Assembly (NCBI RefSeq): GCF_030295405.1
Contig: NZ_AP027080.1
Location: 3,952,001 to 4,016,000, forward strand
Length of the DNA: 64,000 nucleotides
Origin: Mesoterricola silvestris
Lineage (GTDB): Bacteria > Acidobacteriota > Holophagae > Holophagales > Holophagaceae
Reading direction: 5' to 3'
Part shown: positions 1-16,510 of the stretch, piece by piece
How the letters are laid out: every line of letters begins with the position of its first letter
Numbering within the stretch: the stretch's first letter is position 1
Notes under the pieces: generated by a model
What the model was told of the DNA's origin: nothing
The model's input: only the letters and a program-made list of their open reading frames with translations
The model's database searches: none
Position numbers and translations under genes: made by a program

Positions 1-888
1 GAACTCCTCGAGCAGTCGGGGACCTTCCGGACAGCGAAGGGGTTCACGGGACATGAGCAGACGGATGCATCGGGGCTGATATACATGCAGGCGCGGTTCT
101 ACCTGCCGCAATACGGACGGTTCGCGAGCCCCGATCCGGCCAGGGACCAGCATTTCGAGTTCACCCAGAGCTGGAACATCAACAGCTACGTGCAGAACAA
201 TCCGGTCATGAGCACAGACCCAACGGGGCTGCAGGAAGTGCCCAAAGATCCGCGGGAAGTCACCGAAGAGGCCTCAGTGATACCGACTAAGAGAGAAGAT
301 TCCGGTTTCGGTGATATGACCATGAGGAATAAGGAGAACCGGAAGGCGTCGAAAGCGGAGAAACCGGCGGGATGGATAACAATCCATTCTTCAACCAGAG
401 GAGAGGCAGGTATCACTGCCGGCCATTCGTATATTGAAATTACTACCGCGGAAGGAGAGCACCACACTTACGGGACATGGGGAAACACCTCTGGTGGTGG
501 GAACCTGGGGTTGAGAGAAGACTTTGAATTGAAGATGACACCGACCGGTGAAGCAACTAGAACCCAAGAGATGAACGGTGACCAATTGAGAGCGGTCTTG
601 GGACTTGTTCAGGCGGCCAAGGAAAAAGGAAGGGATGCCTGGTCGCTAGGTAACCCATGTAGCACTTTTGCTCATGCTGCGTGGGAGGCCGGAACTGGTG
701 AGGATCTAAAGTTCACCAAAGGTGGCGTGAGCAATCCGACGTCTCTAAAGGAGGGGATTATTGCTGCGAATGGTGGGGTCGCTCATGGTGGCCTTTCAAA
801 AATACCTGCCGATCAAAATCGAACCCATCGGGCGCCGATGTCGCCGTTTCTGAACTCCCTTGGACCAGCCTTATCGTCGGTCTTTTGA
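1..888 (+). CDS. RHS-family protein, C-terminal part with variable toxin-like tip (5' end outside window)
   Basis: The reading frame is open from base 1, so this is the 3' end of a longer gene; 295 codons are visible. The first ~75 codons hold the RHS-associated core signature, with GLIYMQARFY, YGRFASPDP and DPTGL motifs that end the conserved shell. After DPTGL the sequence changes to a divergent C-terminal domain of about 215 residues, as in polymorphic toxins. That tip has a GHSYIEI segment and, further on, NPCSTFAHAAW. A histidine followed by a cysteine in this order resembles permuted papain-like (NlpC/P60-type) folds, so a peptidase or amidase activity is possible; this is inference. 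Known RHS proteins are secreted or delivered to kill competitors, and the next small gene is the natural immunity candidate. The RHS assignment is firm; the tip function is not. Confidence 0.88.
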   Translation, partial: ELLEQSGTFRTAKGFTGHEQTDASGLIYMQARFYLPQYGRFASPDPARDQHFEFTQSWNINSYVQNNPVMSTDPTGLQEVPKDPREVTEEASVIPTKREDSGFGDMTMRNKENRKASKAEKPAGWITIHSSTRGEAGITAGHSYIEITTAEGEHHTYGTWGNTSGGGNLGLREDFELKMTPTGEATRTQEMNGDQLRAVLGLVQAAKEKGRDAWSLGNPCSTFAHAAWEAGTGEDLKFTKGGVSNPTSLKEGIIAANGGVAHGGLSKIPADQNRTHRAPMSPFLNSLGPALSSVF

Positions 889-902
889 TCTCTGGAGGTT
901 TC

Positions 903-1220
903 ATGCTTGTTTGGGCAAAATCGGCTCTATTGTCAATTCTGTCATTGGGAACAGTGCTGGAACAGCACGCCACAATCGACCTGAAAGTAGAGGTTCGGCG
1001 AGAACAGCCGATGGTTGTGAAGGTCACTGGCGGGTGTGGGCACAGTTCGATGGGAATTAAGAAGGTTGTCCAGAAACGCGAAGGCTCTTCTATCCGCGTA
1101 CTTGTTTACCTAAGGGTAGGTGAGCCGGAAGGAGATTTCTCCACTGAAATCACTGTGCCTGATGATGTGAGACAAATTTTGTTTGGGAAAAGAGGGCAGG
1201 TGATTTTCTCCCGACCTTAG
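903..1220 (+). CDS. Small hypothetical protein, candidate immunity protein for the RHS tip
   Basis: A 105-codon frame begins 14 bases after the RHS stop. The ATG at 903 is preceded by a good ribosome binding site (CTGGAGGT, 891-898); a TTG overlapping the RHS stop at 885 is an alternative but lacks such a site. The N-terminus is hydrophobic (VWAKSALLSILSLG), compatible with a signal peptide or membrane anchor, followed by a beta-rich looking segment with one GGCGH stretch. I recognise no family. Its place immediately behind a polymorphic toxin tip is what suggests immunity; an exported immunity protein would fit a toxin acting in the periplasm or on the cell wall. This is inference from position only. 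Confidence 0.6.
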   Translation: MLVWAKSALLSILSLGTVLEQHATIDLKVEVRREQPMVVKVTGGCGHSSMGIKKVVQKREGSSIRVLVYLRVGEPEGDFSTEITVPDDVRQILFGKRGQVIFSRP

Positions 1221-1508
1221 GATGGTCGCGCTGTTGCTCTGATGCTCTATTGCGCCGACCCACTCCGTCAGAGGCGCCGGCCGGCTCACCCCGGGAAAAG
1301 GCCGCGCCTGCGCACCGCGTTGCGGCGCTCCAGCACGCCCTATGCGTCGGGGCGCCCCTGAGGCCCAGCGCCCATTCGATCGTGTAGAGGTGACAGCGGC
1401 GGCCTCCAACGGCGGCAATGCCGAGAGCCCAACGGGTCCCTCCAATTCGTAGTGGCAGCAGTCGCGGCCGCCATCCGCGGGGTTCGTCAAAAGGGTCGGC
1501 ATGCCTAG
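1221..1508. other. Non-coding or decayed stretch downstream of the RHS locus
   Basis: No frame with convincing codon use or a ribosome binding site is visible. The sequence is GC-rich and probably consists of remnants of displaced RHS cassettes, because a toxin-tip fragment follows directly. Confidence 0.4.
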
Positions 1509-1682
1509 TATTTCGTGTCGCAAGCAGGTGTTGCTGTGGCAGGAATGGCTGTAGCCAAGGGACGCCATCATGTTCCCCATGCTATCTGGAAGAGCCTCAA
1601 GAACCTTTCACCTGCAGGCCGCAAGGTTTTTGAGAAGGCGACGGCTGGACCTGTCCCGGGTGGTCACAACTACTCGGAGTAG
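1509..1682 (+). pseudogene. Fragment of an orphan RHS toxin tip (xHH-type)
   Basis: Between an in-frame TAG at 1506 and a TAG at 1680 lies a 57-codon frame with no good start. It reads through a GVAVAGMAVA linker, typical of the end of an RHS shell, into KGRHHVPHAIW, a SPAGRKVFEKAT segment and GPVPGGHNYSE. The paired histidines followed by VP and the later GP...GHN resemble the HNH/ENDO VII-type nuclease tips named after xHH motifs (GHH, LHH and relatives). Orphan tips behind a complete RHS gene are known as reservoirs for recombination into the main gene. Here the tip is cut short, so it looks like a decayed cassette. The nuclease assignment is by motif resemblance only. Confidence 0.5.
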
Positions 1683-1989
1683 AACTTGCTCAGCCCCGTG
1701 ACGGTTTTCACGGCGCGACTGAAGAGGTTCCCCGTGAACTCGATCTCCAGTTCTGGATTCCGCTCACGGAACATCCGCCCAAGATCCTTTTCCAGGACGC
1801 GCCCAACTGGTTCCGTCCAGGCGATAAGGTCCACACCCTGAGAGACTACTCCGCAAAAAAAGGGGGGCATTGCTCGATGACCCTCACTTCCGCTACGCCG
1901 TCGCAGGTCATCTCCCTGGGGATCCCGGCAGCCCTACACGGCTTCCAGACCTTTTCCAGCGCCTGAAAGCTATCGCATCCAGGAGATGA
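1634..1989 (+). pseudogene. Decayed frameshifted gene behind the orphan tip, possible old immunity gene
   Basis: A start-less frame runs from 1634 with protein-like composition (LDLQFWIPLTEHPPK, NWFRPGDKVHTLRDY). It reaches a homopolymer run of seven A and six G near 1854-1866. Shifting frame there gives a sensible continuation (ALLDDPHFRYAVAG, RLPDLFQRLKAIASRR) ending at TGA 1987-1989. Both halves keep GC-rich third positions, which supports one ancestral gene broken by an indel in the run. I do not recognise the family. By position it could be the former immunity partner of the orphan tip at 1509-1682. An antisense frame at 1670-1870 also looks protein-like, so the strand is not certain. 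Confidence 0.4.
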
Positions 1990-2235
1990 CGGGACCGATC
2001 CGGCGCCTTGGCGGAATTCCTCCCACGGGCGGCCTTCTGCCTTTGCATGCCCGTGGAGTGCAGGAAGGCGGAATCATCGAATCCAGTATCCGAACCCCCC
2101 ACACCCTTCAGGACCGGAGCCCCCCTTGGAGACGCGACGGACCCCAGGGTTCTCGCCCGCGGCAATTCTCTTCCTTTCCAGGATATGCATAATTTACCTT
2201 GAACCCCGGAACCGAAGCCAACCTGAGGAGCACCC

Positions 2236-2568
2236 GTGGAAAAGAGCCTGATCGACGAGATCCTCCGTTTCCGCGACGCCAGGAACTGGAAGCAGTTCCA
2301 CAATCCCAAGGACCTCGCCATCTCCCTCTCCATCGAGGCCAGCGAGCTCCTGGAGTGCTTCCAGTGGGCCTCCTCCGCCGAGGCCCTCGCCTCGCGCCGG
2401 GAGCAGATCGCCGAGGAACTGGCGGACGTGATGATCTACGCCGCCCTCCTGGCCGAAGCCACGGGCCTGGACCTCGAGGCCATCACCCGGGCCAAGCTCG
2501 CGGTGAACGCCGAGAAGTACCCCGTGGAGAAAGCCTACGGCCGGAAAGACAAATATGATCGTCTTTAA
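2236..2568 (+). CDS. MazG-like nucleotide pyrophosphohydrolase
   Basis: A 110-residue single-domain all-alpha NTP pyrophosphatase of the MazG-like/dCTPase type. The two acidic metal-binding helices are visible as IEASELLECFQW (about residues 33-44) and EELADVMIYAALLAE (about 59-73), and the conserved NAEKYPVEKAYG tail follows. Such enzymes hydrolyse (d)NTPs to (d)NMP and pyrophosphate, cleaning or depleting nucleotide pools. The start is GTG at 2236, preceded by TGAGGAG at 2224-2230. The 3' end overlaps the nuclease-helicase gene by 14 bases, so the two are translationally coupled and probably act together. All catalytic acids appear present, so an active enzyme is expected. Confidence 0.9.
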   Translation: MEKSLIDEILRFRDARNWKQFHNPKDLAISLSIEASELLECFQWASSAEALASRREQIAEELADVMIYAALLAEATGLDLEAITRAKLAVNAEKYPVEKAYGRKDKYDRL

Positions 2569-4501
2569 GAGCAGCGTGGCGGAATTCCTCGATGCCGTCG
2601 AACGCAGTGCCCTCACGGGAATGATCGAAACGCGCTACCGCACCGCCCTGCACCGCGCACCCGCACCGGGGGAGCGCCAGGCCTGGCAGAATTCCATGAA
2701 CTTCGTCTGCCATCGCCTGCGCCGGTCGAAAATCCCCCAGGACTGCGGCGTTCTCATCGAGTACGTGATTCCGACCACCCTCAAGCGCATGGACCTGGTC
2801 CTGTCCGGCTTCAACCGCGAGAAGAACAAGCAGGTCCTCATCATCGAACTGAAACAGTGGATGGAAGCGCGCCTGTCCCGGAATCCCGATCTGGTCTGGA
2901 CCCGCATGGGCGGGGGGGATGTGGAGACGCCCCACCCCTGCTACCAGGCCTACTCCTACCTGCGCTTTCTCCAGGACCTGCACGAGGGGTTCGGCCGGAA
3001 CGAGATCCGCGGCCGGTCCTGCGCCTACCTCCACAACTACGAGCCCGCGGCCCGGGACGAGCCGCTTCTGGACAAGCGCTACCGGTCCCTCCAGACCGAT
3101 GCGCCGCTTTTCCTGGGCACCGACCACGAGAAGCTGGAAGGGTTCCTGGCGGACCATTTCCACGCCGGCGACGGGGGCGCCATCCTGGATCAACTGGAGA
3201 CGGGCCCCTTCCGGCCCAGCAAGCGGCTGATGGACGAGGTCGCCAATCTGTACGAAGGGAACCCCTCCTTCCTCATGCTCGACGAGCAGAAGGTGGCCTA
3301 CGAGAACATCGTGGCGGCCGTCCTGGAGAAGGGCACGAAGAAACGAACCATCATCGTCCAGGGCGGACCGGGCACCGGCAAATCCGTCATCTCCATGAAT
3401 GCGTTCGGCCATCTGCTCCGGTCGGGGCTCAATGTCAGGTTCGTCGCTCCCAACGCCGCCTTCCGCCAGGTCACCAAGACGTCCCTGGTGCGCAAGGGCA
3501 AACGCGGCGTCAAGGCCACCATCGACAATCTCTTCCTGGGTTCCGCCTCCTTCCTCCGGTGCAATGAGAACACCTTCGACGCCCTCATCGTGGACGAGGC
3601 TCACCGGCTCAAGGGAAAGGGCGCCTACCAGTACTTCGGCGAAAGCCAGGTGGAGGACATCCTCAAGGCCTCCCGGCTGAATGTGTTCTTCGTGGACGAC
3701 AACCAGCGGATCCGCAAGGACGACATCGGGACCGTGGACACCATCCGCAAGGCCGCGGCCAAATTCCAGTCGAAGGTGACCGAATTCAATCTGGTCTCCC
3801 AGTTCCGGTGCTCCGGGGCCGACGGATTCCTCCAGTGGCTGGATGACGTCCTGGGCATCCAGCCCACCGCCAATTTCGACGGCTGGGACCCGGACGCCTT
3901 CACGTTCGAAATCTGCCCAACGCCCGGGGACGTCCTCGCCCGGGTCCAGGCGAAGAACCGGGAAGGGAAAAGAGCCCGGATGCTGGCCGGCTATGCCTGG
4001 AAATGGAGTTCGGAAGGCAACGGCAACGGCGAAGTGGAGGACGTCCGGATCCCGGAGCACGGTTTCGCCATGCCCTGGAACGGCCGCACCATCTCCACCT
4101 CCTGGGCAATCCACCCCGACGGCGAGGGCCAGATCGGCTGTGTCCACACCAGCCAGGGCCTGGAATTCGACTACGTGGGCGTGCTGGTGGGCAGGGACCT
4201 CCAGTACGATCCCGACCGCGGCGATCTCCGGGCCAGTTGGAGCGACTACAAGGACTCGACCGGAAAGAAGGGCCTGAAGGAGGACCCGGCGACCCTCACC
4301 CGCTTCGTCGGCAATATCTACAAGATCCTGATGTCCCGGGGGATGAAGGGATGCTTCGTCTACATCCAGGACGAGGCGCTCGCCGGATACTTCCAGGACC
4401 GCCTGGGACGAACGCCCATGGCACCGGGGGCCATGGGCCACGAGGATTCCCTGCTCGCCACCAACGTGGGGTCCAGCCAGAACAGGCCGGGGACGATTTG
4501 A
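2555..4501 (+). CDS. DUF2075-type nuclease-helicase fusion
   Basis: A 648-residue protein. The N-terminal ~110 residues end in a PD-(D/E)xK-like pattern: MDLVLSG near residue 79 and IIELKQW near 97, with E-x-K spacing. A central linker leads to a superfamily 1-like ATPase with Walker A GGPGTGKS at about 270-277, Walker B/DEAH (LIVDEAH) near 346, a QFRCSG motif near 418 and a late HTSQGLEFDYVGV segment that resembles helicase motif V. This is the DUF2075 architecture, often annotated as DNA/RNA helicase. The gene overlaps the MazG-like gene by 14 bases. A nuclease, a helicase and a nucleotide pyrophosphatase in one operon within accessory DNA suggest anti-phage defence; that role is inference. 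No close third gene is present, since the next ORF lies 235 bases away and is of another type. Confidence 0.85.
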   Translation: MIVFKSSVAEFLDAVERSALTGMIETRYRTALHRAPAPGERQAWQNSMNFVCHRLRRSKIPQDCGVLIEYVIPTTLKRMDLVLSGFNREKNKQVLIIELKQWMEARLSRNPDLVWTRMGGGDVETPHPCYQAYSYLRFLQDLHEGFGRNEIRGRSCAYLHNYEPAARDEPLLDKRYRSLQTDAPLFLGTDHEKLEGFLADHFHAGDGGAILDQLETGPFRPSKRLMDEVANLYEGNPSFLMLDEQKVAYENIVAAVLEKGTKKRTIIVQGGPGTGKSVISMNAFGHLLRSGLNVRFVAPNAAFRQVTKTSLVRKGKRGVKATIDNLFLGSASFLRCNENTFDALIVDEAHRLKGKGAYQYFGESQVEDILKASRLNVFFVDDNQRIRKDDIGTVDTIRKAAAKFQSKVTEFNLVSQFRCSGADGFLQWLDDVLGIQPTANFDGWDPDAFTFEICPTPGDVLARVQAKNREGKRARMLAGYAWKWSSEGNGNGEVEDVRIPEHGFAMPWNGRTISTSWAIHPDGEGQIGCVHTSQGLEFDYVGVLVGRDLQYDPDRGDLRASWSDYKDSTGKKGLKEDPATLTRFVGNIYKILMSRGMKGCFVYIQDEALAGYFQDRLGRTPMAPGAMGHEDSLLATNVGSSQNRPGTI

Positions 4502-4736
4502 CGTAGGGCCACGCGCCGGCGGACCTTTCTGTCCTTGCGATCGCCCCTCGCCGTCAGCTACACCTCGTCCACAAGCCACTTCGACCCTGGCTCTGGATTC
4601 CCAACCGTGGAAGCAGGTCCGGATTCTCCCCAAGGCCAAGCCTGCGAAGAATGGGCTTCTTCCCGGGTCCCGCCTCGGTTTGCTTTGTCGGAGAAGAGGA
4701 AGACCGATAGGCTATTGGCAATCCCCGGGAGTATCC

Positions 4737-6308
4737 ATGCGTCTTCTTTGGCCCTTTTTCGCCGTGGCCTGTACCTTGGGCGCCAAGGAATCCATCCCCG
4801 TTGATACGGCTATTGTCAGCGTCAGGGTGCATCCCAATGAGGCCTGGATCACCCGCAGGGGCACCTTCCAGGTCTCCGGTGGTGGAGCGCACCGGGTTTC
4901 CATCCCGGGACTCCCCAAGGGCCTCAGGTTCGATGACCTTCGAATGGGTGTCCGAGGCCCGGCCGGGACCCGCCTTGGGGATCTCACCGTGCGGGAGGCG
5001 CCTCTGACCTACCAGGAGAGTCCCGAATGGAAGCGGCTGGATCATGAGCAGGACCAGCTCGCAGAAGGACTGGAGCGCCTCAAGGGGCGCCGGACGAATC
5101 TCGATAAAGCGGAGCAACTGTTCAAGGAAATGAAGGCCGCCCACCAAAAAGCCCTGCAGCATGCCATGGCGGCTGATGCCTTGAAGCCTCAGACCATCCA
5201 GGAATTCTCCGTCGCGCTTGAAGGGCGAAGGCTGGAACTGGCGCGCCAGGGGGCGAGTCTTGACGCGGAGAAGGCCACCCTGACCGAAAAGTCCGCCTTG
5301 AACCGGGAAGCCATGGCCAGGCTGAAGGAGAAGGGCGAGGCCAACCCCACCGTCGTTTCGGCGGAACTGGAAACCGCCAAGGCTGGATCCGTGGAGGTTT
5401 CGGTGGCATTCCGCTCCAAGGACGCGTCCTGGTCCCCCGCCTATGAGGCCCGCTTGAGCCCCGACAAGAGCAAGTTGGAGCTTGTGCTTTTCGCGGCGGT
5501 GAAGCAGGGAACCCATGAGACATGGAATGGCGTGGGCCTGGAATTGCTGAGCCAGGACCCTTCCGGCCGCCTCGACCTGCCCGCGGGCGTGTCCTTCCCC
5601 GCACTCAATTTCAAGGATGGAAACACCCCCAAAGCCTCCATGAGCGCACCGGAAAATCCGGCCAAAGCCTCGAGCCTCACCACCATCAAAGTGCCTGGGA
5701 ACGTGGTGGTCCCCAGCGGAGAGGAGCAGCGCTTCCGCATTTCCAGCCTGGACCTGGCCCCGACCTTCCGCTATCTCGCCATCCCCCGCCAGGGTCCCGA
5801 CGTATTCCTCATGGCCATGGTGATGCCGCCTCCAGGTTTTGCCCTGGTGGGAGGAAGCCCCGTGGACATGCTCCAGGGCACGGAGCGCCTGGGAACCCTG
5901 CAGCTTGAGCCCCAGGCCCCTGGCGAGCCTCTGAGGCTCAGCTATGGCCCCGTTCCAGGCCTGGTGGCCCGGTTCGAAAAGGTCGAACAGCACCATGGCG
6001 AAGTGGGGGACAAAACCAAGGAGCGGGAATGGGTGTTCAAGGAACGCCTGGAGGTGGGTAGCACCCTCGGCTTCCCCGTGGAGGTGGAGGTCATGGATCG
6101 GACCATTGCCGCAGGAACCGGCTCCGTGAAGGTGGATCAGGCGGAAAACACCACACCGGGGTGGGAGGCCGTCAGACCGGGAATCCGAAGCTGGGTGCTC
6201 CACCTCGAGGCGGGTGGCAAGGCCGAGGTCATTCAGCAGACCCGAATTCGCGGGCCCCTGGTGGGGCGCCTCGTCAATGTGGGCGAACTCGCCCTGGAGG
6301 GCAACTGA
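4737..6308 (+). CDS. Secreted DUF4139 (MuiA-like) protein
   Basis: A 523-residue exported protein. The ATG at 4737 is chosen because it gives a clean signal peptide (MRLLWPFFAVACTLG, cleavage near residue 17) and follows a GGGAG box; an upstream ATG at 4680 has neither. Residues ~25-105 match the N-terminal DUF4140 domain (AIVSVRVHPNEAWITRRG). A coiled-coil helical segment follows (~110-210), and then the DUF4139 beta domain starting around SVAFRSKDASWSPAYEARL. Family members are called mucoidy inhibitor MuiA-like, but their biochemistry is unknown. Its stop overlaps the start of the next gene, a paralogue, as TGATG, so the two are co-translated and may form a hetero-complex in the envelope. 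Confidence 0.85.
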   Translation: MRLLWPFFAVACTLGAKESIPVDTAIVSVRVHPNEAWITRRGTFQVSGGGAHRVSIPGLPKGLRFDDLRMGVRGPAGTRLGDLTVREAPLTYQESPEWKRLDHEQDQLAEGLERLKGRRTNLDKAEQLFKEMKAAHQKALQHAMAADALKPQTIQEFSVALEGRRLELARQGASLDAEKATLTEKSALNREAMARLKEKGEANPTVVSAELETAKAGSVEVSVAFRSKDASWSPAYEARLSPDKSKLELVLFAAVKQGTHETWNGVGLELLSQDPSGRLDLPAGVSFPALNFKDGNTPKASMSAPENPAKASSLTTIKVPGNVVVPSGEEQRFRISSLDLAPTFRYLAIPRQGPDVFLMAMVMPPPGFALVGGSPVDMLQGTERLGTLQLEPQAPGEPLRLSYGPVPGLVARFEKVEQHHGEVGDKTKEREWVFKERLEVGSTLGFPVEVEVMDRTIAAGTGSVKVDQAENTTPGWEAVRPGIRSWVLHLEAGGKAEVIQQTRIRGPLVGRLVNVGELALEGN

Positions 6309-8206
6309 TGCGCCCCGCCGTTCTCTCCCTTCTAGCTTTGTGCCTATCCGCCCAGGAACCCTCCCTGACCCCGGCCTTGAACCGTGTGCGGGTGCATCCC
6401 AGCCAGGCCTGGACAACCCGGGAGACCACCTGGACCTTCAAGGCCCCCGGTTCCCAGCGGGTCCGCCTGATAGGGCTACCCCCTGGCCTGTCCCTGGGGG
6501 ATGTCCGGGTGCAGGCCGATGGCATCCCCGGGCTTCGCCTGGGAAACGTCGTCGTCATTCAAGAGGAAGGGCACTATGAGCCTGACGCCACCGCCAGGGC
6601 CCTCAGCACGGAGGGTGATCGCCTGGAAAAGGCGCAGCTGGACCTCACGTTGAGGCTGGAAGCACTGGAAGAGGCCAGGACTTCGATCCAGGGCCTCAAG
6701 CCAGATGTCGGTCCCGGCCCTGTTGGGCCCCTACAGGAACCCAAGGTGAGCGTCGAGCTTGAGCGAGCCATTCAAAGCCGGGGCGATGAAATCCTGACTC
6801 AGGTGAATGCAATCAAGGCGGAGCAAAAGACCGCCCAGGCCCGCCAGGAAGCCATCCTTGCCGAACTGGCCCGCCTCGAAGCAGCTTCCAAGCGAGCTTC
6901 CAGCGTGGTGACGGTGGAATTGGAAGCCCCTTCGGCTGGAGAAGCAAGGGTTCAGATCCACAGCCACACCGGGGCAGCAAGGTGGAGGCCAGGATTCGAA
7001 GTCCGCCTTGGCGAGAAGGGATTGGAACTCCTGTGCTATGCCAGTGTGAGCCAGGCCAGCGGCGAGGACTGGCGGGGCGTCAATCTGGAAATCTCCAATG
7101 CCGAACCCGGAAGGGCCCTCAAGGTCCCTGCCCCACCACCGGCTGTCCAAGTCCTGTACGAAGCCCCTGGGGTCGTCCTGACAGGCAGGATCGAGGGCAA
7201 GGTCACGGATCGAATGGGCCGCGCAGTGCCCGGGGTAAGGGTGGAAGCCACCAATGCTCCCCTGAAGGCTTCGCGTGCCACCACCACGGATGCCAATGGG
7301 GTTTTCCGGATACCCCTCCTCCCTCCGGGGGAGTACACGCTCCGGGCCACAAAGACCGGTTATCCCACGGCGGCCTCATACGCCCGGGTCAATGCAGGGC
7401 AGGCCACGAGCTTGGGCCTTCAAATGGTTTCCATCGCAGGTGCCTCGGTTGTGGAGGTCGTCGCAGAGGTCCCCGGGGTGGACAGGACGGCGGCGATGAC
7501 CGCCTCCAGTTTTTCAACCGATTCCATCCAGGCACTGGAATCCACGCCAGACCATTACGAAGACTCGGGAGAATTGAGCCGGGCCTGGATTCTGGAAGGA
7601 AAGAGGGATTTGGCTTCCGATGCCGTCTCGCGCCGGATTCTATTGGCACGCGCCAGCGTGGACCCCAAACTCCTCTTGAAGGCCCTTCCACGAAGCAGCA
7701 CGGAAGTGTTCCTGATCGCGCCCCTCCCTGCTCCATCCGGATTCCCGTGGTTCCCAGGCACCCCTACGGCCGTTTTCCGGAACGGGGAGCAGCTGGGGCA
7801 GGTCAGCCTCCCCCGCCTCCAGGGCACAGAAGGAGCGCTCTTCAGCTTTGGCCCCGTTCCCGGCCTGAGAGTTCAGCGCCAACGCTTGGAGGCCACGGTG
7901 GCCTCGGCAAGGGGCGGGCGCGGGCGCCAGTGGACGCTTCGGGAAAGGGTCCTCCTGGTGAATGACCTGGACAAGGAGGTAGAGGTGGAGGTGCAGGAGC
8001 CCTCCATTCGCTCCGGGTCCGAAAAGGTGAAGGTGGAGGTTTTGCCGGAGGCCACCCCCGCCCTGGAAGCCGGCGACAAGATGACCTGGACCGTGAAGGT
8101 TCCAGCCCACGGTCAGGCCAAAATCGAGGAAGCCTGGCGCATCACAGGCCCCACTGCGGGGTCTGTGCCTGAGGTTGCACTGCTGGGACTGCCCACGAGT
8201 GATTAG
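6308..8206 (+). CDS. Secreted DUF4139 protein with inserted carboxypeptidase-regulatory-like domain
   Basis: A 632-residue paralogue of the preceding gene, starting at ATG 6308 inside its TGA. A signal peptide (MRPAVLSLLALCLSAQ), a DUF4140-like region (NRVRVHPSQAWTTRE), a coiled-coil segment and the start of DUF4139 (GAARWRPGFEVRL) follow in the same order. At about residues 290-370 there is an insertion with GRIEGKVTDRMGRAVPGV, TTTDANGVFRIPLLPPGEY and LRATKTGY. This is a CarboxypepD_reg-like beta-sandwich as found at the N-terminus of TonB-dependent receptors. It is followed by VEVVAEVPGVDRTAA, which resembles the linker before a receptor plug. The DUF4139 fold then resumes. The insert may bind carbohydrate or protein in the periplasm. 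Function unknown. Confidence 0.82.
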   Translation: MRPAVLSLLALCLSAQEPSLTPALNRVRVHPSQAWTTRETTWTFKAPGSQRVRLIGLPPGLSLGDVRVQADGIPGLRLGNVVVIQEEGHYEPDATARALSTEGDRLEKAQLDLTLRLEALEEARTSIQGLKPDVGPGPVGPLQEPKVSVELERAIQSRGDEILTQVNAIKAEQKTAQARQEAILAELARLEAASKRASSVVTVELEAPSAGEARVQIHSHTGAARWRPGFEVRLGEKGLELLCYASVSQASGEDWRGVNLEISNAEPGRALKVPAPPPAVQVLYEAPGVVLTGRIEGKVTDRMGRAVPGVRVEATNAPLKASRATTTDANGVFRIPLLPPGEYTLRATKTGYPTAASYARVNAGQATSLGLQMVSIAGASVVEVVAEVPGVDRTAAMTASSFSTDSIQALESTPDHYEDSGELSRAWILEGKRDLASDAVSRRILLARASVDPKLLLKALPRSSTEVFLIAPLPAPSGFPWFPGTPTAVFRNGEQLGQVSLPRLQGTEGALFSFGPVPGLRVQRQRLEATVASARGGRGRQWTLRERVLLVNDLDKEVEVEVQEPSIRSGSEKVKVEVLPEATPALEAGDKMTWTVKVPAHGQAKIEEAWRITGPTAGSVPEVALLGLPTSD

Positions 8207-8378
8207 GTCATCCGGGGGTGCGCTTGGGCCATGGGCAAGACTGCTGAAGCCCAACGACCGATGCCCGGATAGGAACGCAGACTCCCCTCCCGGACGGGGG
8301 TCGTCTGTCTCATCCTCCAACCCCCGCCACCGGTGAATCCCCTTGTCCATGCCCGTGCCGCTGTGCTGGAGTGGAACC

Positions 8379-9515
8379 ATGATCAACGCATGGCTGAAGT
8401 CCATAGCCGGTTTCCTGCTGGCGTGTATGGCGCTGGACGCGCAAATCGGGAAGCCGGTGCCGGTCCAGTACGACGCCCTCGGAACGGTGGAACCCTTTGA
8501 CCCGGGTTCCATCAAGCGCATCGCATGGGGCAACCCGGGTGAAGAATGGTCGGCCACCTTCAGCTTTCCGCAAGGCTGGGTCGCGAGTGAATTCTGGAAA
8601 GGTCCACCCCCGGCGGTGAATCTTGAGGTCAAGGCCCCGGACGGGGGCGCCCAGGTTATGGCTTTGCCATTCAGGCACTACGGCTATGCCTTTGAAGGTG
8701 TGAATGGCGAATTCATCGGAAAGGTGAAGTGGGAAATGCCACACATGACCTTTCCTGGGCTCCACGACTTGTATTACGCCGAGCAGGCCACCTTCGGCCC
8801 ATGGGAGGTCGGGCGCGTCATCTGGCGCGTGGGCGGGTGCAGTGGCAACCCGCCGATGCTCTTCCTGCTCATCGTGCGAAATCGGGAATCAGGGCGGTGG
8901 AGGGTGTGCCAGGACGAATTCCAGTACCCACCCGCGCCCGATGGCGGGGACCCCATGCGGGCACGGGTCCACGAGGATGGGTCACTCGGGGTGACCTTAT
9001 GGAACTACCATGGCCGGAACTCAGCCATTATTTCTGGCTGGACCTTCCACGCTCGCCCTGGCGGAGAGATCCGCTGCGAGGCCACGAAGCCGAGGTTCTG
9101 TCTCTTCACCCGAACGGGTTCCGTGGCCACCCTGGCGGACACCCCCCGCGAAGCCATCCACATAGGCTACCAGGAAGCCGCATGGCACCTGGAGTCATGG
9201 AATGCGAAGGGGGGCAAGGCGCGGGCCTTCGCCCCCAGCCCGCGCCAATTGCTCACAGAGGACGCCCGCTATGGCGCCCCCATTCTGCCTCAGCCCGGAA
9301 CCCGAAGATTTCTGTGGGCCGCGGAACTCTATGTGGTGCCATGGAAGGGTAAGCCTGCGTGGATGAAACTGCCGGAGGCCCAAGCCCTGCTTAAAACCGG
9401 CCGCTGGGATGTCGTGCTTTTCCCGCTGGGAGAGGGAAAGGCCCTCTGCCAAAGGCTGGTCGAGCACAGACGCGATCTTCCGCACAGCACCCAGGGAAAC
9501 GGGACCCGCCGGTGA
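8379..9515 (+). CDS. Secreted hypothetical protein
   Basis: A 378-residue protein starting at ATG 8379 with CTGGAG upstream at 8366-8371 and a signal peptide (INAWLKSIAGFLLACMALDAQ). The mature part is rich in Trp, aromatic and Gly residues with short beta-strand-like segments and contains a cysteine in RVGGCSGNPP. No family is recognised. It lies 172 bases behind the DUF4139 pair on the same strand. The last ~12 codons run into a region shared with the inverted repeat copy at 9547, so the native C-terminus may have been altered by rearrangement. Confidence 0.6.
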   Translation: MINAWLKSIAGFLLACMALDAQIGKPVPVQYDALGTVEPFDPGSIKRIAWGNPGEEWSATFSFPQGWVASEFWKGPPPAVNLEVKAPDGGAQVMALPFRHYGYAFEGVNGEFIGKVKWEMPHMTFPGLHDLYYAEQATFGPWEVGRVIWRVGGCSGNPPMLFLLIVRNRESGRWRVCQDEFQYPPAPDGGDPMRARVHEDGSLGVTLWNYHGRNSAIISGWTFHARPGGEIRCEATKPRFCLFTRTGSVATLADTPREAIHIGYQEAAWHLESWNAKGGKARAFAPSPRQLLTEDARYGAPILPQPGTRRFLWAAELYVVPWKGKPAWMKLPEAQALLKTGRWDVVLFPLGEGKALCQRLVEHRRDLPHSTQGNGTRR

Positions 9516-9546
9516 GCCCGTTGGAGGCGACCGGGGCGAGGAGGAC

Positions 9547-9620
9547 GTGAACTGCCCTTCGCGCACCGGCCCTGCAGGCCTAACAACACCCTTTCCGCAC
9601 TCTCGGGCTGCGCCTGGGGA
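9547..9620 (+). repeat. Left copy of ~74-bp inverted repeat
   Basis: This segment is the imperfect reverse complement of 10700-10773. The two share a TTCGCGCACCGGCCCTG block, a central ACCCTTTCC and a CTCGGGCTGCGCCTG block, with equal length. The copy abuts the truncated 3' end of the primase remnant. Confidence 0.7.
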
Positions 9621-10534
9621 CGGCATCTTCCTTTGAGGGGATGAAATAGAGCCCATCCTTCTGTTTTTGAAAGTGCCCACCAGCGTTACCCGGCAGGCCA
9701 GCGGCACCAAGCCCCTCTCCTCTCCCAAGAAGCGCCTTGCGTGCATCCGTGATCTTGTGACGCAGTTCCGACTCAGTCCACAAAGGCCGGCAGCGTCCAT
9801 TGTAGGAACCCAGGAGCAGCGCTAGAGCTTCCTCATCCGTCAGTTCGAACCTGGCCAAGAGGGACATTACATCCCGGAACGTCCTAGTCCCTCCCTCCGC
9901 ATTGCCACCCTCCCCGGCAATTGACCCGGGGAGGGATTCCAGGAAGGCCCTCGCATCTCCAATCCTATCCATAGGGCTCGGCACACTCTCCGATTCAGAA
10001 GGAAGATCCTCCGGGATTTCTAGAAATCCGTTAGCGAGCATTGAGACCTCCCGGCAGGAAGTAGAGGCGCGCCGTGTCCTTCAAAACGGGCTGATCCACC
10101 CCTCTCATGAACTGGCCGAGGCCAAGTCGCTGGATGAGCCATGCGGTGGTTGCATCCCATTTCTCCGGGAGGACTGGCCGAGGCAGTGGGATGACCAGGC
10201 GGAAATGTGGCCAATTCCTCGTGTTGGACCAGGTGTTGTAGATGAGGTGATCGATGCCCTCCGATGCCAGATGAAGATCCACTTCCTCTGGATGGACTGG
10301 GCTTTGGATCATCTCCTTCACTCTCTTGCTCCGGCCGGTGGCGGGATCTACTGTTGCGTTGAGGACGCTGTTGTCGAAGTCCAAGAACAAGAGGTGAAGT
10401 GCCTCCACGTTCGCAACACCTCGAGTTGTCCCCGGTTTGAATGTGGCTGGAGAGATGGCGGGCATCAGCCTCTTCGCCGCCTCGAGGGACTCGGCCTTGG
10501 GCGTGGGCCGGGAAGCCTCGATGAATTCGACCAA
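9580..10534 (-). pseudogene. Broken phage/plasmid-type primase (replication protein)
   Basis: Two overlapping frames on the minus strand together resemble a mobile-element primase. The upstream frame (10534 down to 10031, 167 codons) has LLFLDFDNSV and NWPHFRLVIPLPRPV, like the primase-polymerase-type replication proteins of phages and plasmids. The downstream frame (10041 down to 9580, 153 codons) has SLLARFELTDEEALALLL and PLWTESELRHKITDARKA, the PriCT-like C-terminal helix bundle. The frames meet at an overlapping taa/ATG around 10031-10041, consistent with a single indel. The 3' end is lost at the repeat copy at 9547-9620 and the 5' end is next to the IS element. It is a relic, probably from an integrated plasmid or phage. 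Confidence 0.6.
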
Positions 10535-10699
10535 CTTGGGCCAAGTAGTTGTGTCCAGAATTTTCTGTAAGTCCGCTCCAGTAGGGATTTCCTCAGTCTA
10601 GGGCGGGCAGCCGCAGGCGGACCCCGCCCGGCCCGGCGAAACCGATCAGATTCCTGCTGATGACCATCCGCTGTGGGGCATGTGGAGAACGCGCAGCGG

Positions 10700-10773
10700 T
10701 CTCCAGGCGCAGCCCGAGGGTGTGGAAAGGGTGCGGGCAGGCCCGCAGGGCCGGTGCGCGAAGCGCAGTCCAC
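10700..10773 (-). repeat. Right copy of ~74-bp inverted repeat
   Basis: The imperfect reverse complement of 9547-9620. It lies between the left IS terminus and the transposase gene, so the two copies bracket the primase relic. Confidence 0.7.
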
Positions 10774-10850
10774 AGGCTTTCCATGCCTGAGCACGCTCCA
10801 CAGAGCATGGGTCGGCGCCATCAGGGCATGGAGCGACCATAGGAACAAGA

Positions 10851-12014
10851 TCACGCCGGTCCCCCCATGTGCACCCATGCCTGGCCGGTCCAGGCCTCGT
10901 TCTGTTCCATGAGAAGCGCCCCGTAGACGCGTTCCCGGCTTTCCGCATTGGGCCAAACCCGCACCAGTCGGCTCTTTCGCTTCAGCTCCTGGTTGAATCG
11001 CTCGACCATATTGGTCGTCCGCAGCCGCTTATGATGGCCCTCGGGTAGCGCCAGGACGGCCTGGAGGCTGTCCAGGTGCTCCTCCACGTAGTCCACTGCC
11101 TTGGGCGATTTCTCCTCCCAGCGCGCCCTCAGCAGACCGAGCAACTCCTGCGACCGGACGTAGTCCACGGCGTGGAGCACGGCCCTCACGTCTTCCCGGA
11201 AGGCCTTCTGGTCCGCCGCCTTGACCTGCTCGATCGACCTGCGGAGGAAGTGCGCCTGGCACTCCTGCCAGCTCGATCCGGGAAACGCCTTCGTCGCGGC
11301 CTGGCAGAGGCCCTCGTGGGCGTCCGAGACCAGCAGGTCGACCCCATGCAGGCCACGACCCTTCAGGTCCTTGAACAGGCCCTCCCAGGCCACCTCGGTC
11401 TCTCCGCCCCAATCCAGCCAGCCCAGGACCTCTCGCTCCCCCTTCTCGTTGACCCCAGCAGCCCATAGGAAGGCCCGGCTGCGGACGCGGTGGCCTTCCC
11501 GGACTTTGTCGAACCGGGCGTCAACGAGGAGATACGGAAAGGCACCCAAGGGCCGGGTCCGAAACGCTTCCACGGCCGGCTCGATGTCCTTTAGGATCTG
11601 GGATACCAGGCTGGGACTGACCTCTGCCCCGAAGGCCTCCTCCGCCAGCCTGCTCACGTTCCGGTTGGACACCCCGGCCAGCACCATCTGGCCGCAAGCG
11701 GCCAGCAGGGCGCGCTCGGATCTCTGCCAGCGCTCGAATAGGGCCGGCCGGAAGGAGCCGTTCCGGGCCTGCGGTACAGATAGCTCCAGGGCGCCGGCCA
11801 CGGTCTGGAAGCCACGATCCTTGTAGCCATTGCGATAGCCGTTAGGCCGTTCCATGCCCCGGGCGTTCCAGGGCGCCTCGAAATGGGCGTCGGCCTGGCT
11901 GTTGATCAGGGCCTGGGCCACGGCTTCCACCAGCACTCGGAAGCCCTCGCCTCCTGGCTGCGAAAACAGTCCTTCCACAGTCCCCTCGGGGACCTCAAAC
12001 TTCAACTCGGCCAT
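10851..12014 (-). CDS. IS256-family (mutator-type) transposase
   Basis: A full-length 387-residue DDE transposase of the Transposase_mut family. The conserved blocks are present: YLLVDARFDKVRE with the first Asp (about residue 163), LLVSDAHEGL with the second (about 231), the C/H block WQECQAHFLRR, and TTNMVERFNQELKRKSR with the catalytic Glu (about 339). Reading frame and length match active family members, so the enzyme is probably functional. It catalyses copy-paste or excision of the element via the terminal repeats. The start is at the ATG ending at 12014, preceded by AGGAAGCC on the minus strand. Codon use is similar to its surroundings, suggesting arrival from a GC-rich donor. Confidence 0.93.
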   Translation of the reverse strand: MAELKFEVPEGTVEGLFSQPGGEGFRVLVEAVAQALINSQADAHFEAPWNARGMERPNGYRNGYKDRGFQTVAGALELSVPQARNGSFRPALFERWQRSERALLAACGQMVLAGVSNRNVSRLAEEAFGAEVSPSLVSQILKDIEPAVEAFRTRPLGAFPYLLVDARFDKVREGHRVRSRAFLWAAGVNEKGEREVLGWLDWGGETEVAWEGLFKDLKGRGLHGVDLLVSDAHEGLCQAATKAFPGSSWQECQAHFLRRSIEQVKAADQKAFREDVRAVLHAVDYVRSQELLGLLRARWEEKSPKAVDYVEEHLDSLQAVLALPEGHHKRLRTTNMVERFNQELKRKSRLVRVWPNAESRERVYGALLMEQNEAWTGQAWVHMGGPA

Positions 12015-12217
12015 TGGCTTCCTTTCGTAGGCTTGCTTGCTCGCAACTTCAAACCTACTGGAGCCAGTGGCCCCTTTGCTACCCGGACACCTGGAATGGC
12101 GCGGGGGCTAACTTACAGAAGCTTTTATACACAACCGAAACCTCGAGGGCTTTCGCAGCGGAAGCTACCGAGGTAGTGATCTGGCCGTTGGCCTGAGCGC
12201 GGTTCAATCCCTTAGGA

Positions 12218-12457
12218 TCAGTCATTGGACCCTCCAGGGAGAGAGAGAAAGTCCCTCAAGTCCTCGGCAAGGATCCAGCGGTATCGCGATCCTGTCCGAA
12301 GCGCCCGGAGGTGGCCTTTCCTAGGCCAACGGCGAACGGTGCTGATTGGAGCACCAGTCACCTCAGAGACGTCCTCTGGGGTGAGGCGGTGTTTGCCCTT
12401 CAACCCTCCAGCTTCGAGGAGCGATTGAAAGTCAGGTAGTGTGGCTAGGTCAGGCAT
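12218..12457 (-). CDS. Small HTH DNA-binding protein, excisionase/AlpA-like
   Basis: A 79-residue protein. The ATG at 12457 is selected because TGGAGG lies 5-10 bases upstream; a longer frame to 12583 lacks support. Residues ~22-70 form a winged-helix MerR/excisionase-like helix-turn-helix: RLTPEDVSEVTGAPISTVRRW, then KGHLRALRTGSRYRWILAEDL, the usual shape of domains that read a helix, turn, recognition helix and a short wing. Such small proteins control excision or transcription in integrated elements. It lies between the IS and the PIN/Xre module in the accessory block. No integrase is visible nearby, so its partner may have been lost. Confidence 0.65.
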   Translation of the reverse strand: MPDLATLPDFQSLLEAGGLKGKHRLTPEDVSEVTGAPISTVRRWPRKGHLRALRTGSRYRWILAEDLRDFLSLPGGSND

Positions 12458-12885
12458 GGCGCCTCCAGAAATGCCGAAGCACGTTGGAGCGCCGCTTAGC
12501 GCTGGTTTGTTGACTTGAATCGTCGCCTGACGAAGGTGGTGTTGCCCGGATCGTTCGTGCTCGGGTAGGTTGATGCGTCCCAAGGACGCCGAGGACCCGA
12601 GTGATCCCCTTGAACCATTCTACTCCTCGTGAGCGCGGTATCAAGGCAGAACACCATGCACCACAGGGATCCGTCGTGACCGCCCAAGACCTCTGAAACC
12701 ATCCAGGATCATTTGATCCCTATTAAAGGGATCGCAGATCACTTTCAGTAGAGAGAATGTCGATCCAAATTCAGGTGCAGCCCCTGGGGGGAATTTGCTC
12801 CACACCTTGCGACCAATCCACCTGCCCTCGGCACTGCCCGTCGGAACTTCCTCAATGACCCACCGTCGGAGGATCTCTTGAAGGT
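12458..12885. other. 428-base stretch without a recognisable gene
   Basis: Short frames exist on the minus strand but none has a start with a ribosome binding site or a recognisable motif. A short palindrome around ATCCCTATTAAAGGGAT (12717-12733) is the only structure I notice. Base composition is lower in GC than the chromosomal part of the window. Confidence 0.4.
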
Positions 12886-13398
12886 TCAGGACTGGAGGAG
12901 ATCCCTAAAGGAGTCGAAAGGCATTTTGAACCGCCGGCTTTCCAAAGTAACCTTGGCCTCATCTGCCTCTTTGACGCTAAGAAGGCCGGCCCGAATGCCC
13001 ATGAGCAGAAGATCGGCTGTGCCGATCAATCGCGCTTCCCCAATGCGAGCAACTGCCTCCCGGCGGAACCGACCCTTTTCATCCGAGGCTAGGGACCATC
13101 CACGGGCGCTTGCCACTGCAAGGCAGGCGGCTTCCCCCTTTCCCATACGATCAGCGAGGTCTGAGTAAGTTGCCAACTCCCCCAGGTCCGTCATCGAATC
13201 GACCCGTAGGCCGCCGCTGGCGATGGCCATATCAATGGCCACGCGCTGCTCGTCCTGAGTTAATTCCCTCAAGACGGCCTCCGGCACTATGAATTCCATT
13301 CCCTGCAGTCCCCCGCACAGGCCCAGCCTGGAAATATGGACGAGGTTAATCAGAACGTTGGTATCAGTGACAACGATCTTGACAGGGGAGGGCATCAT
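12886..13398 (-). CDS. PIN-domain protein, probable toxin or ribonuclease
   Basis: A 170-residue PIN-fold protein. The acidic metal site is visible: TDTNVLIN near residue 12, a Glu in LRELTQDE near 45, GKGEAACLAVA near 88 and SDEKGRF near 105. PIN proteins of this size are Mg-dependent ribonucleases, commonly the toxin of type II toxin-antitoxin pairs (VapC-like). The start codon overlaps the stop of the upstream Xre-ImmA/IrrE gene (13395-13398), so the two are translationally coupled and the partner is the expected antidote or regulator. The 170-residue length is somewhat above the ~130-residue VapC average, mainly because of extra C-terminal helices. Confidence 0.82.
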   Translation of the reverse strand: MMPSPVKIVVTDTNVLINLVHISRLGLCGGLQGMEFIVPEAVLRELTQDEQRVAIDMAIASGGLRVDSMTDLGELATYSDLADRMGKGEAACLAVASARGWSLASDEKGRFRREAVARIGEARLIGTADLLLMGIRAGLLSVKEADEAKVTLESRRFKMPFDSFRDLLQS

Positions 13399-14645
13399 CG
13401 TTCGGAAGCCTCGCAGGTTTCGACATCCCCGGCCTCTACAGAAAGAAGGTCAAGGGCATCAGCAGGGCAACCCATCAGGAGCGCCAACTCCCGCAGTTTC
13501 CCACGCGAGATTTCTTCCCTTCGATAGGCTTCCAGGGCTAACCCCAGGAATCGCTGTTTAAAGGCGTTTCGCAGCCCTTCATGATCTGGGGTAGGTAGGT
13601 CGAGGAATGAATGGATCGACTTAGCCTTTCCAGCCTGCTCCTGGGTTTTCAGGTTCTCGAATTCCCGTTCGGTGATGAACCGAAGGTTTCGAAGGCGAAA
13701 GAGAGCGGATTGGCAACTGACACCGAAGGCGTAGGCCAATTGCACCACATCATAAAGTTGAAGGGCCTGAGAGCCTGGGTCGTTTCGCCCCTCCACATTC
13801 AAACTGCCAGCCTCGTCGAACAAATCCGCTGAGGGCCGACTCGGCTGCCCCTTCCCTAAACCTTGGATGAAGGCCCGGACACCGCTCTCCGGCAGAAGGA
13901 AGTTCGCCGCAAAGGAATTGGCTCGCACCTCCGTGAGTTCATCCCGCTCGGAGGCCTTGCTGACTAGGCCGAATTTGTCCCGGTCTACCAGCACATGAGC
14001 ATATTCGTGGACAAATGAGAAACGACGGCGCAGGTGGTGGTGAAGGCGATTGGCCACCACAAAGAAACCAACCTTGCGGTCATTCAAAGTAAGCCCGGAG
14101 ACATCGTCCACAAGATCCACCAAGCCCGTCCGCACACCTTGGGATTCGAGCAATTCAGTGACCTCCGGCAACGAAGTGTTGCCCAGCCCCAATCGGCGCC
14201 TTTCGCTTTCCGCAAGTCGCTGTCCTTGCTGGATAGCGTCCCATCGTGAGCGAAGCGGCGGATATGAATAAGTGGTTACCTGGGCCTTTTCGTGATCCAG
14301 ACCAAGGAACTGCTCGAGGCGAGTCAATTCCCGCCCAAGAGCCATGCAGGTCCTGAGCTTTTCGAGAACCTCGGGTTGGGATGCGACCTCGGGTTGAGCT
14401 CGGAACAACGCCGCCAGCGCATCCTCCTCCTCGAAGGCTTCCGCCAGGAAGTCCCGAATCTCCCGCCCGAACAAATAGGCCAAACGATCAAGTTCCAAAC
14501 TGGTGACCGATCGATTCCCCGCCTCAATCTGCACATAGGACGGACGAGAAACCCCAAGTTGGGTCGCGGCCTCTTCCTGAGTCATCTGACTGGCTTCCCG
14601 CGCTGCGCGGATGCGGCGGCTGAGTTCCTGCTGGGTAATAGCCAT
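13395..14645 (-). CDS. Xre-type HTH fused to ImmA/IrrE metallopeptidase
   Basis: A 416-residue protein. Residues ~5-60 are an Xre/Cro HTH (RIRAAREASQMTQEEAATQLGVSRPSYVQIEAG). Residues ~140-250 are a COG2856 domain with the zinc motif H213-E-Y-A-H217 in FVHEYAHVLVD and a downstream glutamate-containing helix (ELTEVRANSFAANFLLP). ImmA/IrrE proteins cleave repressors or act as stress-responsive regulators. The C-terminal ~130 residues are helical with no family that I recognise. The gene overlaps the PIN gene by 4 bases, forming a two-gene module that is probably autoregulated through the HTH at the AT-rich region upstream (14646-14900). All peptidase residues are intact. Confidence 0.85.
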   Translation of the reverse strand: MAITQQELSRRIRAAREASQMTQEEAATQLGVSRPSYVQIEAGNRSVTSLELDRLAYLFGREIRDFLAEAFEEEDALAALFRAQPEVASQPEVLEKLRTCMALGRELTRLEQFLGLDHEKAQVTTYSYPPLRSRWDAIQQGQRLAESERRRLGLGNTSLPEVTELLESQGVRTGLVDLVDDVSGLTLNDRKVGFFVVANRLHHHLRRRFSFVHEYAHVLVDRDKFGLVSKASERDELTEVRANSFAANFLLPESGVRAFIQGLGKGQPSRPSADLFDEAGSLNVEGRNDPGSQALQLYDVVQLAYAFGVSCQSALFRLRNLRFITEREFENLKTQEQAGKAKSIHSFLDLPTPDHEGLRNAFKQRFLGLALEAYRREEISRGKLRELALLMGCPADALDLLSVEAGDVETCEASER

Positions 14646-14940
14646 CGTGGCCTCCTGTCGATGGAGGATTTCCTTACAATCGTCTGCTGATTTGGCGACC
14701 CATGATATTCACCGAAGTGAGGGGCCAGCGCCGCTGGGGGGAATTTCGGGAGGAAAGACCCTCCCCACAGGGATCTCACTTAGTTTGATTTCAAAACCAG
14801 AATTGTCAATACGCGGATTTGAAGGTTGATTTTGAATCATACCCCAAAAAAGTTCAATGATTTCATGTTTTCTCGTTCAAGGGGTAACCACCTTGGCGAG
14901 CGATCCTTAAGGCATGGGTGAAAGTATGGGTGGAACCAAC
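14646..14940. other. AT-rich intergenic region upstream of the Xre-ImmA/IrrE gene
   Basis: No gene is seen. The part 14780-14880 is distinctly AT-rich compared with the rest of the window, with near-repeats of TTGATTTTGAATCAT and TTCAATGATTTCATG. It is a plausible promoter-operator for the divergent minus-strand module, but no clear -10/-35 pair could be fixed. Confidence 0.35.
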
Positions 14941-14978
14941 GCCAAAAAAAAGAAGCCCTTGTTTTTCAAGGGCTTTTT
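14941..14978 (-). terminator. Rho-independent terminator of tRNA-Ser
   Basis: A perfect stem AGCCCTTG/CAAGGGCT (14954-14961 and 14967-14974) with a five-base loop is followed on the minus strand by a run of eight T. It lies just downstream of the tRNA. T-richness on the other side may make it bidirectional. Confidence 0.85.
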
Positions 14979-14986
14979 CGCATTCT

Positions 14987-15076
14987 TGGCGGAGAGAGAG
15001 GGATTCGAACCCCCGGTGAGCTCACACCCACACCTGATTTCGAGTCAGGCGCATTCGACCACTCTGCCATCTCTCC
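14987..15076 (-). tRNA. tRNA-Ser(CGA), CCA encoded
   Basis: The minus strand folds as a class II tRNA. The acceptor GGAGAGA pairs with TCTCTCC, the anticodon arm CCTGA-CTCGAAA-TCAGG gives anticodon CGA (reads UCG), and there is a long variable arm and a TTCGAATC T-loop. The discriminator is G, as usual for serine, and CCA is encoded (14987-14989). It forms the boundary between the accessory block (1-14.9 kb) and ordinary chromosome, a typical integration neighbourhood. Confidence 0.95.
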
Positions 15077-15179
15077 AGGCCAGCCAGTCTACCAGAACCC
15101 GGCCCGCGTTGTCCCGGGGGACCGGTTCCCCCATCATGGAAATGCGGGCTCCCTTCCCGGGGCCCCTCGGGGGGTGGCC

Positions 15180-16241: not shown

Positions 16242-16256
16242 GTTGTTCTCGATAAG

Positions 16257-16507
16257 CTGACCCCAGCCTTGATCTGAAGTTCTTTATCCTGCTTCTTCCC
16301 CTGGATCCTGTTTATCCCCGTTCGAAATACGCTGGGAGTTGTCGCCGCCTATGGGTCATGGACGTCGAGTAACTTGCGCTGCGACCCACCTCTGCATCAG
16401 CCCTGCGGAAACCGGGATGAACGCCGATGGATGGGATGAACGGGGATCCTTTCAACCTGGAACAGCCCCTTCATCATGGTTTCAAGGCACCTGGGGTTCG
16501 CCGACAC
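16257..16507 (+). repeat. Dispersed intergenic repeat, family A, copy 1
   Basis: About 250 bases aligned without net gaps to 30102-30352. Shared blocks include TTCTTTATCCTGC, CCCCTGGATCCTGTTTATCC, GACGTCGAGTAAC, CATCAGCCCTGCGGAAAC and CCCCTTCATCA. The GGATGAACGCCGATG core is shared with the palindrome at 53523-53661. It contains no good ORF. Confidence 0.8.
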
Positions 16508-16510
16508 GCC

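Follow-up and report, generated by a model that had tools for sequence, protein, structure and literature searches.

A mobile operon pairing a MazG-like pyrophosphohydrolase with a predicted nuclease-helicase in Mesoterricola silvestris, a candidate anti-phage module

Among the known nuclease-helicase defence systems, Gabija consists of a TOPRIM nuclease (GajA) and a UvrD helicase (GajB), and sensitivity to nucleotides has been reported for it. Nhi (nuclease-helicase immunity) of Staphylococcus, as well as Hna, was described as a single protein, and a dCTPase-type partner is not mentioned for either (PMC10732053, PMC12904381). In Hachiman, the sensor helicase HamB senses the state of the DNA, while the nuclease HamA is the effector (PMC12278908). 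As for MazG, this NTP pyrophosphohydrolase was predicted, and not validated, as a defence domain by DefensePredictor, the main text of which mentions no helicase or DUF2075/PF09848 partner of MazG (PMC13092281). Here, we analyzed a stretch of 64,000 nucleotides from Mesoterricola silvestris (the window), in which a MazG-like gene overlaps a gene for a predicted nuclease-helicase, with the following features.

2225-2230, + strand: Shine-Dalgarno-like GAGGAG, 5 nt ahead of the GTG start (direct sequence reading)
2236-2568, + strand: MazG-like (DCTPP1/dCTPase-type) all-alpha NTP pyrophosphohydrolase, 110 aa, GTG start (PF12643, E=1.6e-19)
2555-2568, + strand: 14-nt overlap of the MazG-like and nuclease-helicase genes (ORF coordinates)
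2555-4501, + strand: nuclease-helicase, 648 aa (PF09848, E=2.2e-79; AlphaFold2 model, pLDDT 83.8)
2666-3034, + strand: putative N-terminal PD-(D/E)xK-like nuclease region, RecB/Cas4-type by its QxxxY (from conserved residues and strand order in the model)
2759-2761, 2792-2794, 2846-2854 and 2945-2959, + strand: nuclease motif residues E69, D80, E98-x-K100 and Q131xxxY135, respectively
3341-4372, + strand: SF1 helicase domain of Schlafen group 3 (PF09848, aa 263-606; structural neighbours UvrD, RecD2 and SLFN11/14)
3362-3385, + strand: Walker A, GGPGTGKS, aa 270-277 (sequence)
3593-3604, + strand: DEAH box, aa 347-350 (sequence)

In sequence searches of the PDB, the MazG-like protein matches an archaeal pyrophosphatase (4qgp, E=7.7e-21) and mammalian DCTPP1 (dCTP pyrophosphatase 1, E=8.5e-15). 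Its model (pLDDT 90.7) adopts an all-alpha fold, which aligns with 4qgp (Z 12.0, rmsd 1.8, 97 aligned) and mouse dCTPase 6sqw (Z 11.0, rmsd 2.5, 100 aligned), while other MazG proteins trail these two in the structural search (Z <=9.4). The metal ligands E34, E37, E61 and D64 form an ExxE...ExxD motif, which is retained almost throughout the partner MazG proteins of homologous pairs (E34 and D64 in 74/74, E37 and E61 in 73/74). Because the protein is of the dCTPase/DCTPP1 type, it more probably hydrolyses cytosine nucleotides than causes the general nucleotide depletion suggested in the earlier note, and specificity for dCTP would be expected from its homologues. MazG and DCTPP1 enzymes are known for their role in house-cleaning. 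DCTPP1/mouse dCTPase and archaeal AF1178 (4qgp), which resemble the window MazG in fold (Z 11-12) and share its conserved catalytic residues, are stand-alone house-cleaning enzymes, whereas the window gene lies in an operon with a nuclease.

The helicase passes the cut-off of PF09848 (267.8 bits against 24) over the full length of the profile (1-354); this family, SLFN-g3_helicase, was formerly DUF2075 and is now named 'Schlafen group 3, DNA/RNA helicase domain'. Both the Walker A motif and the DEAH box, which the earlier note had ascribed to a DUF2075-like protein, are present, and residues G270-K276 (Walker A), D347-H350 (DEAH) and a late arginine, R595, are conserved across homologues. Human SLFN11 and SLFN14 of Schlafen group 3 carry the same PF09848 helicase domain and are both structural neighbours of the window protein. 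However, human Schlafens possess an RNase-type Schlafen core, whereas the N-terminus of the prokaryotic proteins studied here is PD-(D/E)xK-like or GIY-YIG. The ExK of the N-terminal PD-(D/E)xK-like region proved to be real: E69, D80, E98 and K100 are invariant (108/108), as are Q131 and Y135 (109/109), among relatives with this N-terminus. The arrangement E...D...ExK is a PD-(D/E)xK pattern, here with the QxxxY of RecB/Cas4/Dna2-type nucleases, and the region, within the first 230 aa, follows the order alpha-beta-beta-beta-alpha-beta in the model. We treat the fold as predicted because a PDB sequence search with the nuclease region returned a chance match only. The structural neighbours of the model align mainly over aa 232-625, and that no solved nuclease is listed for aa 1-230 says nothing on the fold. 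The N-terminus is a predicted PD-(D/E)xK-like nuclease of RecB/Cas4 type, and both genes retain their catalytic residues.

Like Nhi and Hna, the window protein combines a nuclease, here a predicted one, and a helicase in one polypeptide, and the PADLOC Nhi profile matches the ATPase core of its helicase (E=5.6e-10, aa 243-418); however, this match covers the helicase core only (profile 185-329 of 470) and not the full length of Nhi. The pair has the two-gene nuclease/SF1 helicase logic in common with Gabija, but neither protein matches the GajA or GajB profiles, a single protein holds both the nuclease and the helicase, and the other gene of the pair encodes a pyrophosphohydrolase. Similarly, it resembles Hachiman in its logic of helicase plus nuclease effector and differs in having no HamA or HamB match, another helicase family and an extra MazG enzyme. 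The end of the helicase also matches the PADLOC candidate PDC-S41 (E=9e-13). No named system with both parts was found in PADLOC-2023, which gave partial helicase matches only, and a literature search returned no paper on DUF2075 or COG3410 with MazG and none naming such a system, while a mention in a 2015 nucleotide-centric conflict paper is possible. The pair is best classed as a candidate, previously unnamed variant among the nuclease-helicase defence systems such as Nhi, Hna, Hachiman and Gabija.

Both reading frames and the overlap described in the earlier note were recovered, and the two genes are likely translationally coupled. A scan of the region for sigma-70 promoters and terminators gave nothing above chance. 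The association that the earlier note had proposed is borne out by a co-occurrence count, in which a same-family MazG adjoins 74 of the 116 homologous helicases from a one-genome-per-species scan and phylum samples. MazG lies upstream in 68 pairs and downstream in 6; of the upstream genes, 64/68 are within 100 nt of the helicase and 23 overlap it by exactly 4 nt. When Bacillota, Bacteroidota and Pseudomonadota were sampled evenly, so that bias is light, 20/24 helicases are paired. The genome_contigs set over-represents close relatives and Paenibacillus, in which many helicases are solo. The partner is missing for 39/116 helicases, mainly in Paenibacillus and Planococcaceae clades, and 3 further loci carry split or partial MazG genes. 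Since no close MazG of this type was found elsewhere in the solo-helicase genomes checked, MazG is not always needed. The pairing state switches 16 times on the helicase tree, against at least 25 times in shuffles. Searching from the MazG side in Bacteroidota, we found that 10/15 adjoin an SLFN-g3 nuclease-helicase (five of these of the GIY-YIG type) and 2 more adjoin an HNH endonuclease, one with a cytosine-methyltransferase-like gene nearby. Moreover, MazG and helicase distances are correlated (r=0.38 with n=67, higher than in any of 2000 permutations), also after thinning (r=0.23, reached by 3/5000 permutations), while with GIY-YIG types pooled the trees do not match significantly (r=0.09). 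Congruence of the two trees is modest but real outside that pooling, and the pair is a conserved operon, more than chance neighbours.

Within this operon, helicase and MazG are constant, and the nuclease is either of the PD-(D/E)xK or of the GIY-YIG type. Some helicases with either kind of nuclease also carry a C-terminal Peptidase_S24 (LexA/UmuD-like) domain, the Ser-Lys dyad of which is kept in 14/15 proteins with long tails, and which is possibly a self-cleavage switch. Such tails were seen on the SLFN-g3 nuclease-helicases of loci L099, L101, L084, L135, L067, L050, L074, L136, L005, L007, L008 and L131-L133, and no S24 tail was found on the window nuclease-helicase. Genes resembling those of modification-dependent restriction enzymes sometimes lie between or beside MazG and helicase, as with EVE-HNH in the closest relative; others of this kind are an HNH gene (L122), a gene whose product ends in a PD-(D/E)xK-like motif (L129) and DUF3578 on a Priestia plasmid. 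In Nocardiopsis, a plasmid-borne MazG gene overlaps one for an HNH endonuclease. As well, some solo helicases of Paenibacillus (e.g., L032, L033 and L057) have, 37-40 nt upstream and in the place of MazG, a gene for a ~280-aa, apparently membrane-spanning protein, possibly a partner replacement. A gene for an HD_4 (SpoT/Mesh1-like) hydrolase recurs near 13 loci.

The one-genome-per-species scan yielded 80 loci in Bacillota, Bacteroidota, Pseudomonadota, Omnitrophota, candidate phyla and archaea, and the pair is also present in Acidobacteriota. It occurs in about 2-4% of genomes per phylum (9/348, 12/296 and 5/299 genomes in the phylum samples). Within the same family, about 20 genomes were compared, of which one other (G027) has the pair; the same-genus genome is without it. 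G027, the nearest relative, carries a pair 75% identical to that of the window within an 11-kb integrative element at a tRNA-Glu (L112, G027:C1:2633500-2653400, 5614-16739), which is bounded by two attachment-like 78-nt copies (92%) of the tRNA-Glu 3' end. Besides the MazG/nuclease-helicase pair, this element holds a tyrosine integrase (PF00589, E=3.9e-22), a RepA-like ATPase (AAA_25) and the EVE-HNH gene, and its third-position G+C is below that of the flanking genes. The pair or its helicase was further found on plasmids of Priestia, Hymenobacter, Halalkalicoccus, Methanosphaera, Marivirga and Ligilactobacillus. An IMG/VR scan for a phage-borne origin gave no confirmed relative, and four phage records have a related helicase. 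The pair is thus an accessory, horizontally mobile operon. According to the earlier note, finding the pair widely conserved at one chromosomal position would refute its candidate defence module; this objection fails because of the patchy distribution in the family and the phylum samples, the G027 element and plasmid carriage. A fixed-locus housekeeping operon is ruled out by the distribution over the family genomes and phylum samples.

The surroundings of the pair in the window also contain mobile and accessory genes, two of which are located as follows.

10851-12014: IS256/Mutator transposase (Pfam)
12886-14645: toxin-antitoxin-like pair, PIN-like (PDC-S70) and XRE/M78 (RmrA-like)

These, as well as RHS sequence, are indeed present in the block as the earlier note had described; only the term RHS 'remnants' is unsupported, because the RHS gene (L111 10381-15888) is long and begins upstream of the window, in which its C-terminal end extends to position 888. 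A small ORF follows it at 885-1220 and could be an RHS immunity gene, and a Pfam search of the RHS end and of this ORF gave no match. At 4680-8206, two related genes that share about 31% identity stand in tandem; the genome has more copies elsewhere, and the best same-genus homologue is only 34% identical. Possibly broken ORFs with no family assigned (9580-10534) are flanked by a 78-nt inverted repeat, 86% complementary (9547-9624/10696-10773), and a HTH_17/MerR-like (excisionase-like) gene and the PIN-like and XRE-M78 genes, all within 12218-14645, adjoin tRNA-Ser (14987-15076). The tRNA-Ser-side genes, these ORFs and the IS256 transposase are likely the remains of another integrative element. 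An empty-site comparison with the same-genus genome G097 aligned no more than the flank on the far side of tRNA-Ser and hence did not locate the precise insertion boundary in the window, and no att-like direct repeat was found in window 1-16000. Outside the window, about 7-12 kb upstream of the pair, a UvrD-like helicase gene, an AAA_5 (McrB-like) gene with a PADLOC REase_II match and a 549-aa gene stand in a row (L111 4934-10063, G000), as a second candidate restriction/defence operon.

The earlier note had also placed both families in phage-defence settings, and the neighbours of the relatives are in fact rich in restriction and defence genes. Genes <=3 kb from the relatives matched 129 PADLOC families (147 proteins), and those at a distance of 6-10 kb matched 66 families (150 proteins), an excess of near matches that is only suggestive, as the comparison counts families matched rather than proteins and leaves out the three longest near genes. 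The near matches include type IV restriction enzymes, methyltransferases and parts of Avs, Lamassu, Wadjet and Druantia. The plasmid neighbourhoods are clearer on defence than these counts: DUF3578, restriction endonuclease, ABC-three-component, N6-methylase and HsdS-like genes in Priestia, restriction endonuclease and methyltransferase in Hymenobacter, and HsdS and HsdM in Ligilactobacillus. Two tandem DUF2075 genes lie in a restriction-modification cluster of the Hymenobacter canadensis plasmid NZ_CP114769 (L168, 6001-9987). Both the mobile, patchy distribution and the defence-gene neighbourhood looked for in an anti-phage system were found.

We consider it rather probable that these two genes form a compact and mobile anti-phage (anti-foreign-DNA) module, in which the nuclease-helicase and the dCTPase-type hydrolase act jointly. 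It is from the operon, its intact active-site residues, the pairing, the nuclease swapping, the mobility and the defence-rich neighbourhoods that we infer an anti-phage role, and the substrates and trigger are proposed on the same footing. The nuclease-helicase, with its Dna2-like order of a PD-(D/E)xK-like nuclease followed by an SF1 Schlafen-type helicase, would engage abnormal or foreign DNA, for example ends, forks or single strands, unwind it and cut it. The co-produced dCTPase-type enzyme would meanwhile remove dCTP or modified dCTP, the loss of which may hamper phage DNA synthesis or base modification while the nuclease acts. It is plausible that the DNA of the phage and the precursors of that DNA are attacked together in this way, and the recurrence of modification-dependent restriction genes beside the pair would favour its modified-cytosine version. 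The abortive-infection logic of the earlier note, with death of the infected cell, may also apply.

The main rival to defence, though an unlikely one in our view, is SOS-linked DNA repair with nucleotide sanitation, in which the nuclease-helicase would process damaged ends or forks, the pyrophosphohydrolase would clear damaged or non-canonical dNTPs, and the module would spread as a fitness gene rather than for immunity. House-cleaning is the known role of MazG and DCTPP1, the nearest folds of the helicase are UvrD, RecD2 and SLFN11, and LexA-like S24 tails with a Ser-Lys dyad on a subset, an SRAP gene adjoining one MazG and RadC neighbours in three loci all point in this direction. However, repair genes are usually more lineage-conserved than an operon in about 2-4% of genomes per phylum, and neither carriage on plasmids and integrative elements with restriction genes nor the swapping of nuclease type fits repair well. 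Sensing of DNA damage, moreover, also triggers known defence systems, as in AbpAB (PMC10732053) and Hachiman (PMC12278908).

A serious alternative mechanism, which we nevertheless regard as improbable, is that MazG is a regulator, lowering a local NTP/dNTP that restrains the nuclease-helicase or hydrolysing an inducing nucleotide, so that cleavage would start once a phage disturbs the pool. That the dCTPase active site is conserved in its entirety suggests bulk catalysis instead, while the tight coupling through gene overlap and the existence of MazG-free helicases, as expected for a replaceable regulator, would agree with gating; a precedent is Ppl, which NTPs keep inactive until the nucleotide pool is depleted (PMC12904381). 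That MazG restrains or detoxifies the nuclease-helicase, in a toxin-antitoxin-like or element-maintenance pair, seems very improbable: a small upstream gene does overlap a larger nuclease gene on plasmids and integrative elements, but solo helicases, which need no antitoxin, are common, MazG is a conserved enzyme rather than a disordered binder, and it lies downstream in 6 pairs.

On the reading of the pair as an anti-phage module, it may also, as we propose more tentatively, belong to a widespread unnamed immune system. In such a system, a DCTPP1-family cytosine-nucleotide hydrolase would be the standard partner of interchangeable nuclease-Schlafen-helicases of the PD-(D/E)xK or GIY-YIG type, some of them equipped with a LexA-like autopeptidase switch, control of the dCTP/modified-dCTP pool would be coupled to DNA cleavage, and the Schlafen group 3 helicase would gain a prokaryotic setting. 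If this is true, a common operon annotated just as 'nucleotide pyrophosphohydrolase' and 'DUF2075' would be a defence against DNA and its precursors together. DUF2075/Schlafen group 3 helicases would thereby have a bacterial role, and the antiviral animal Schlafens would be linked to a prokaryotic defence setting. Finally, the swapping of partners and the optional S24 switch would provide a tractable model for the triggering of nuclease-helicase immunity.
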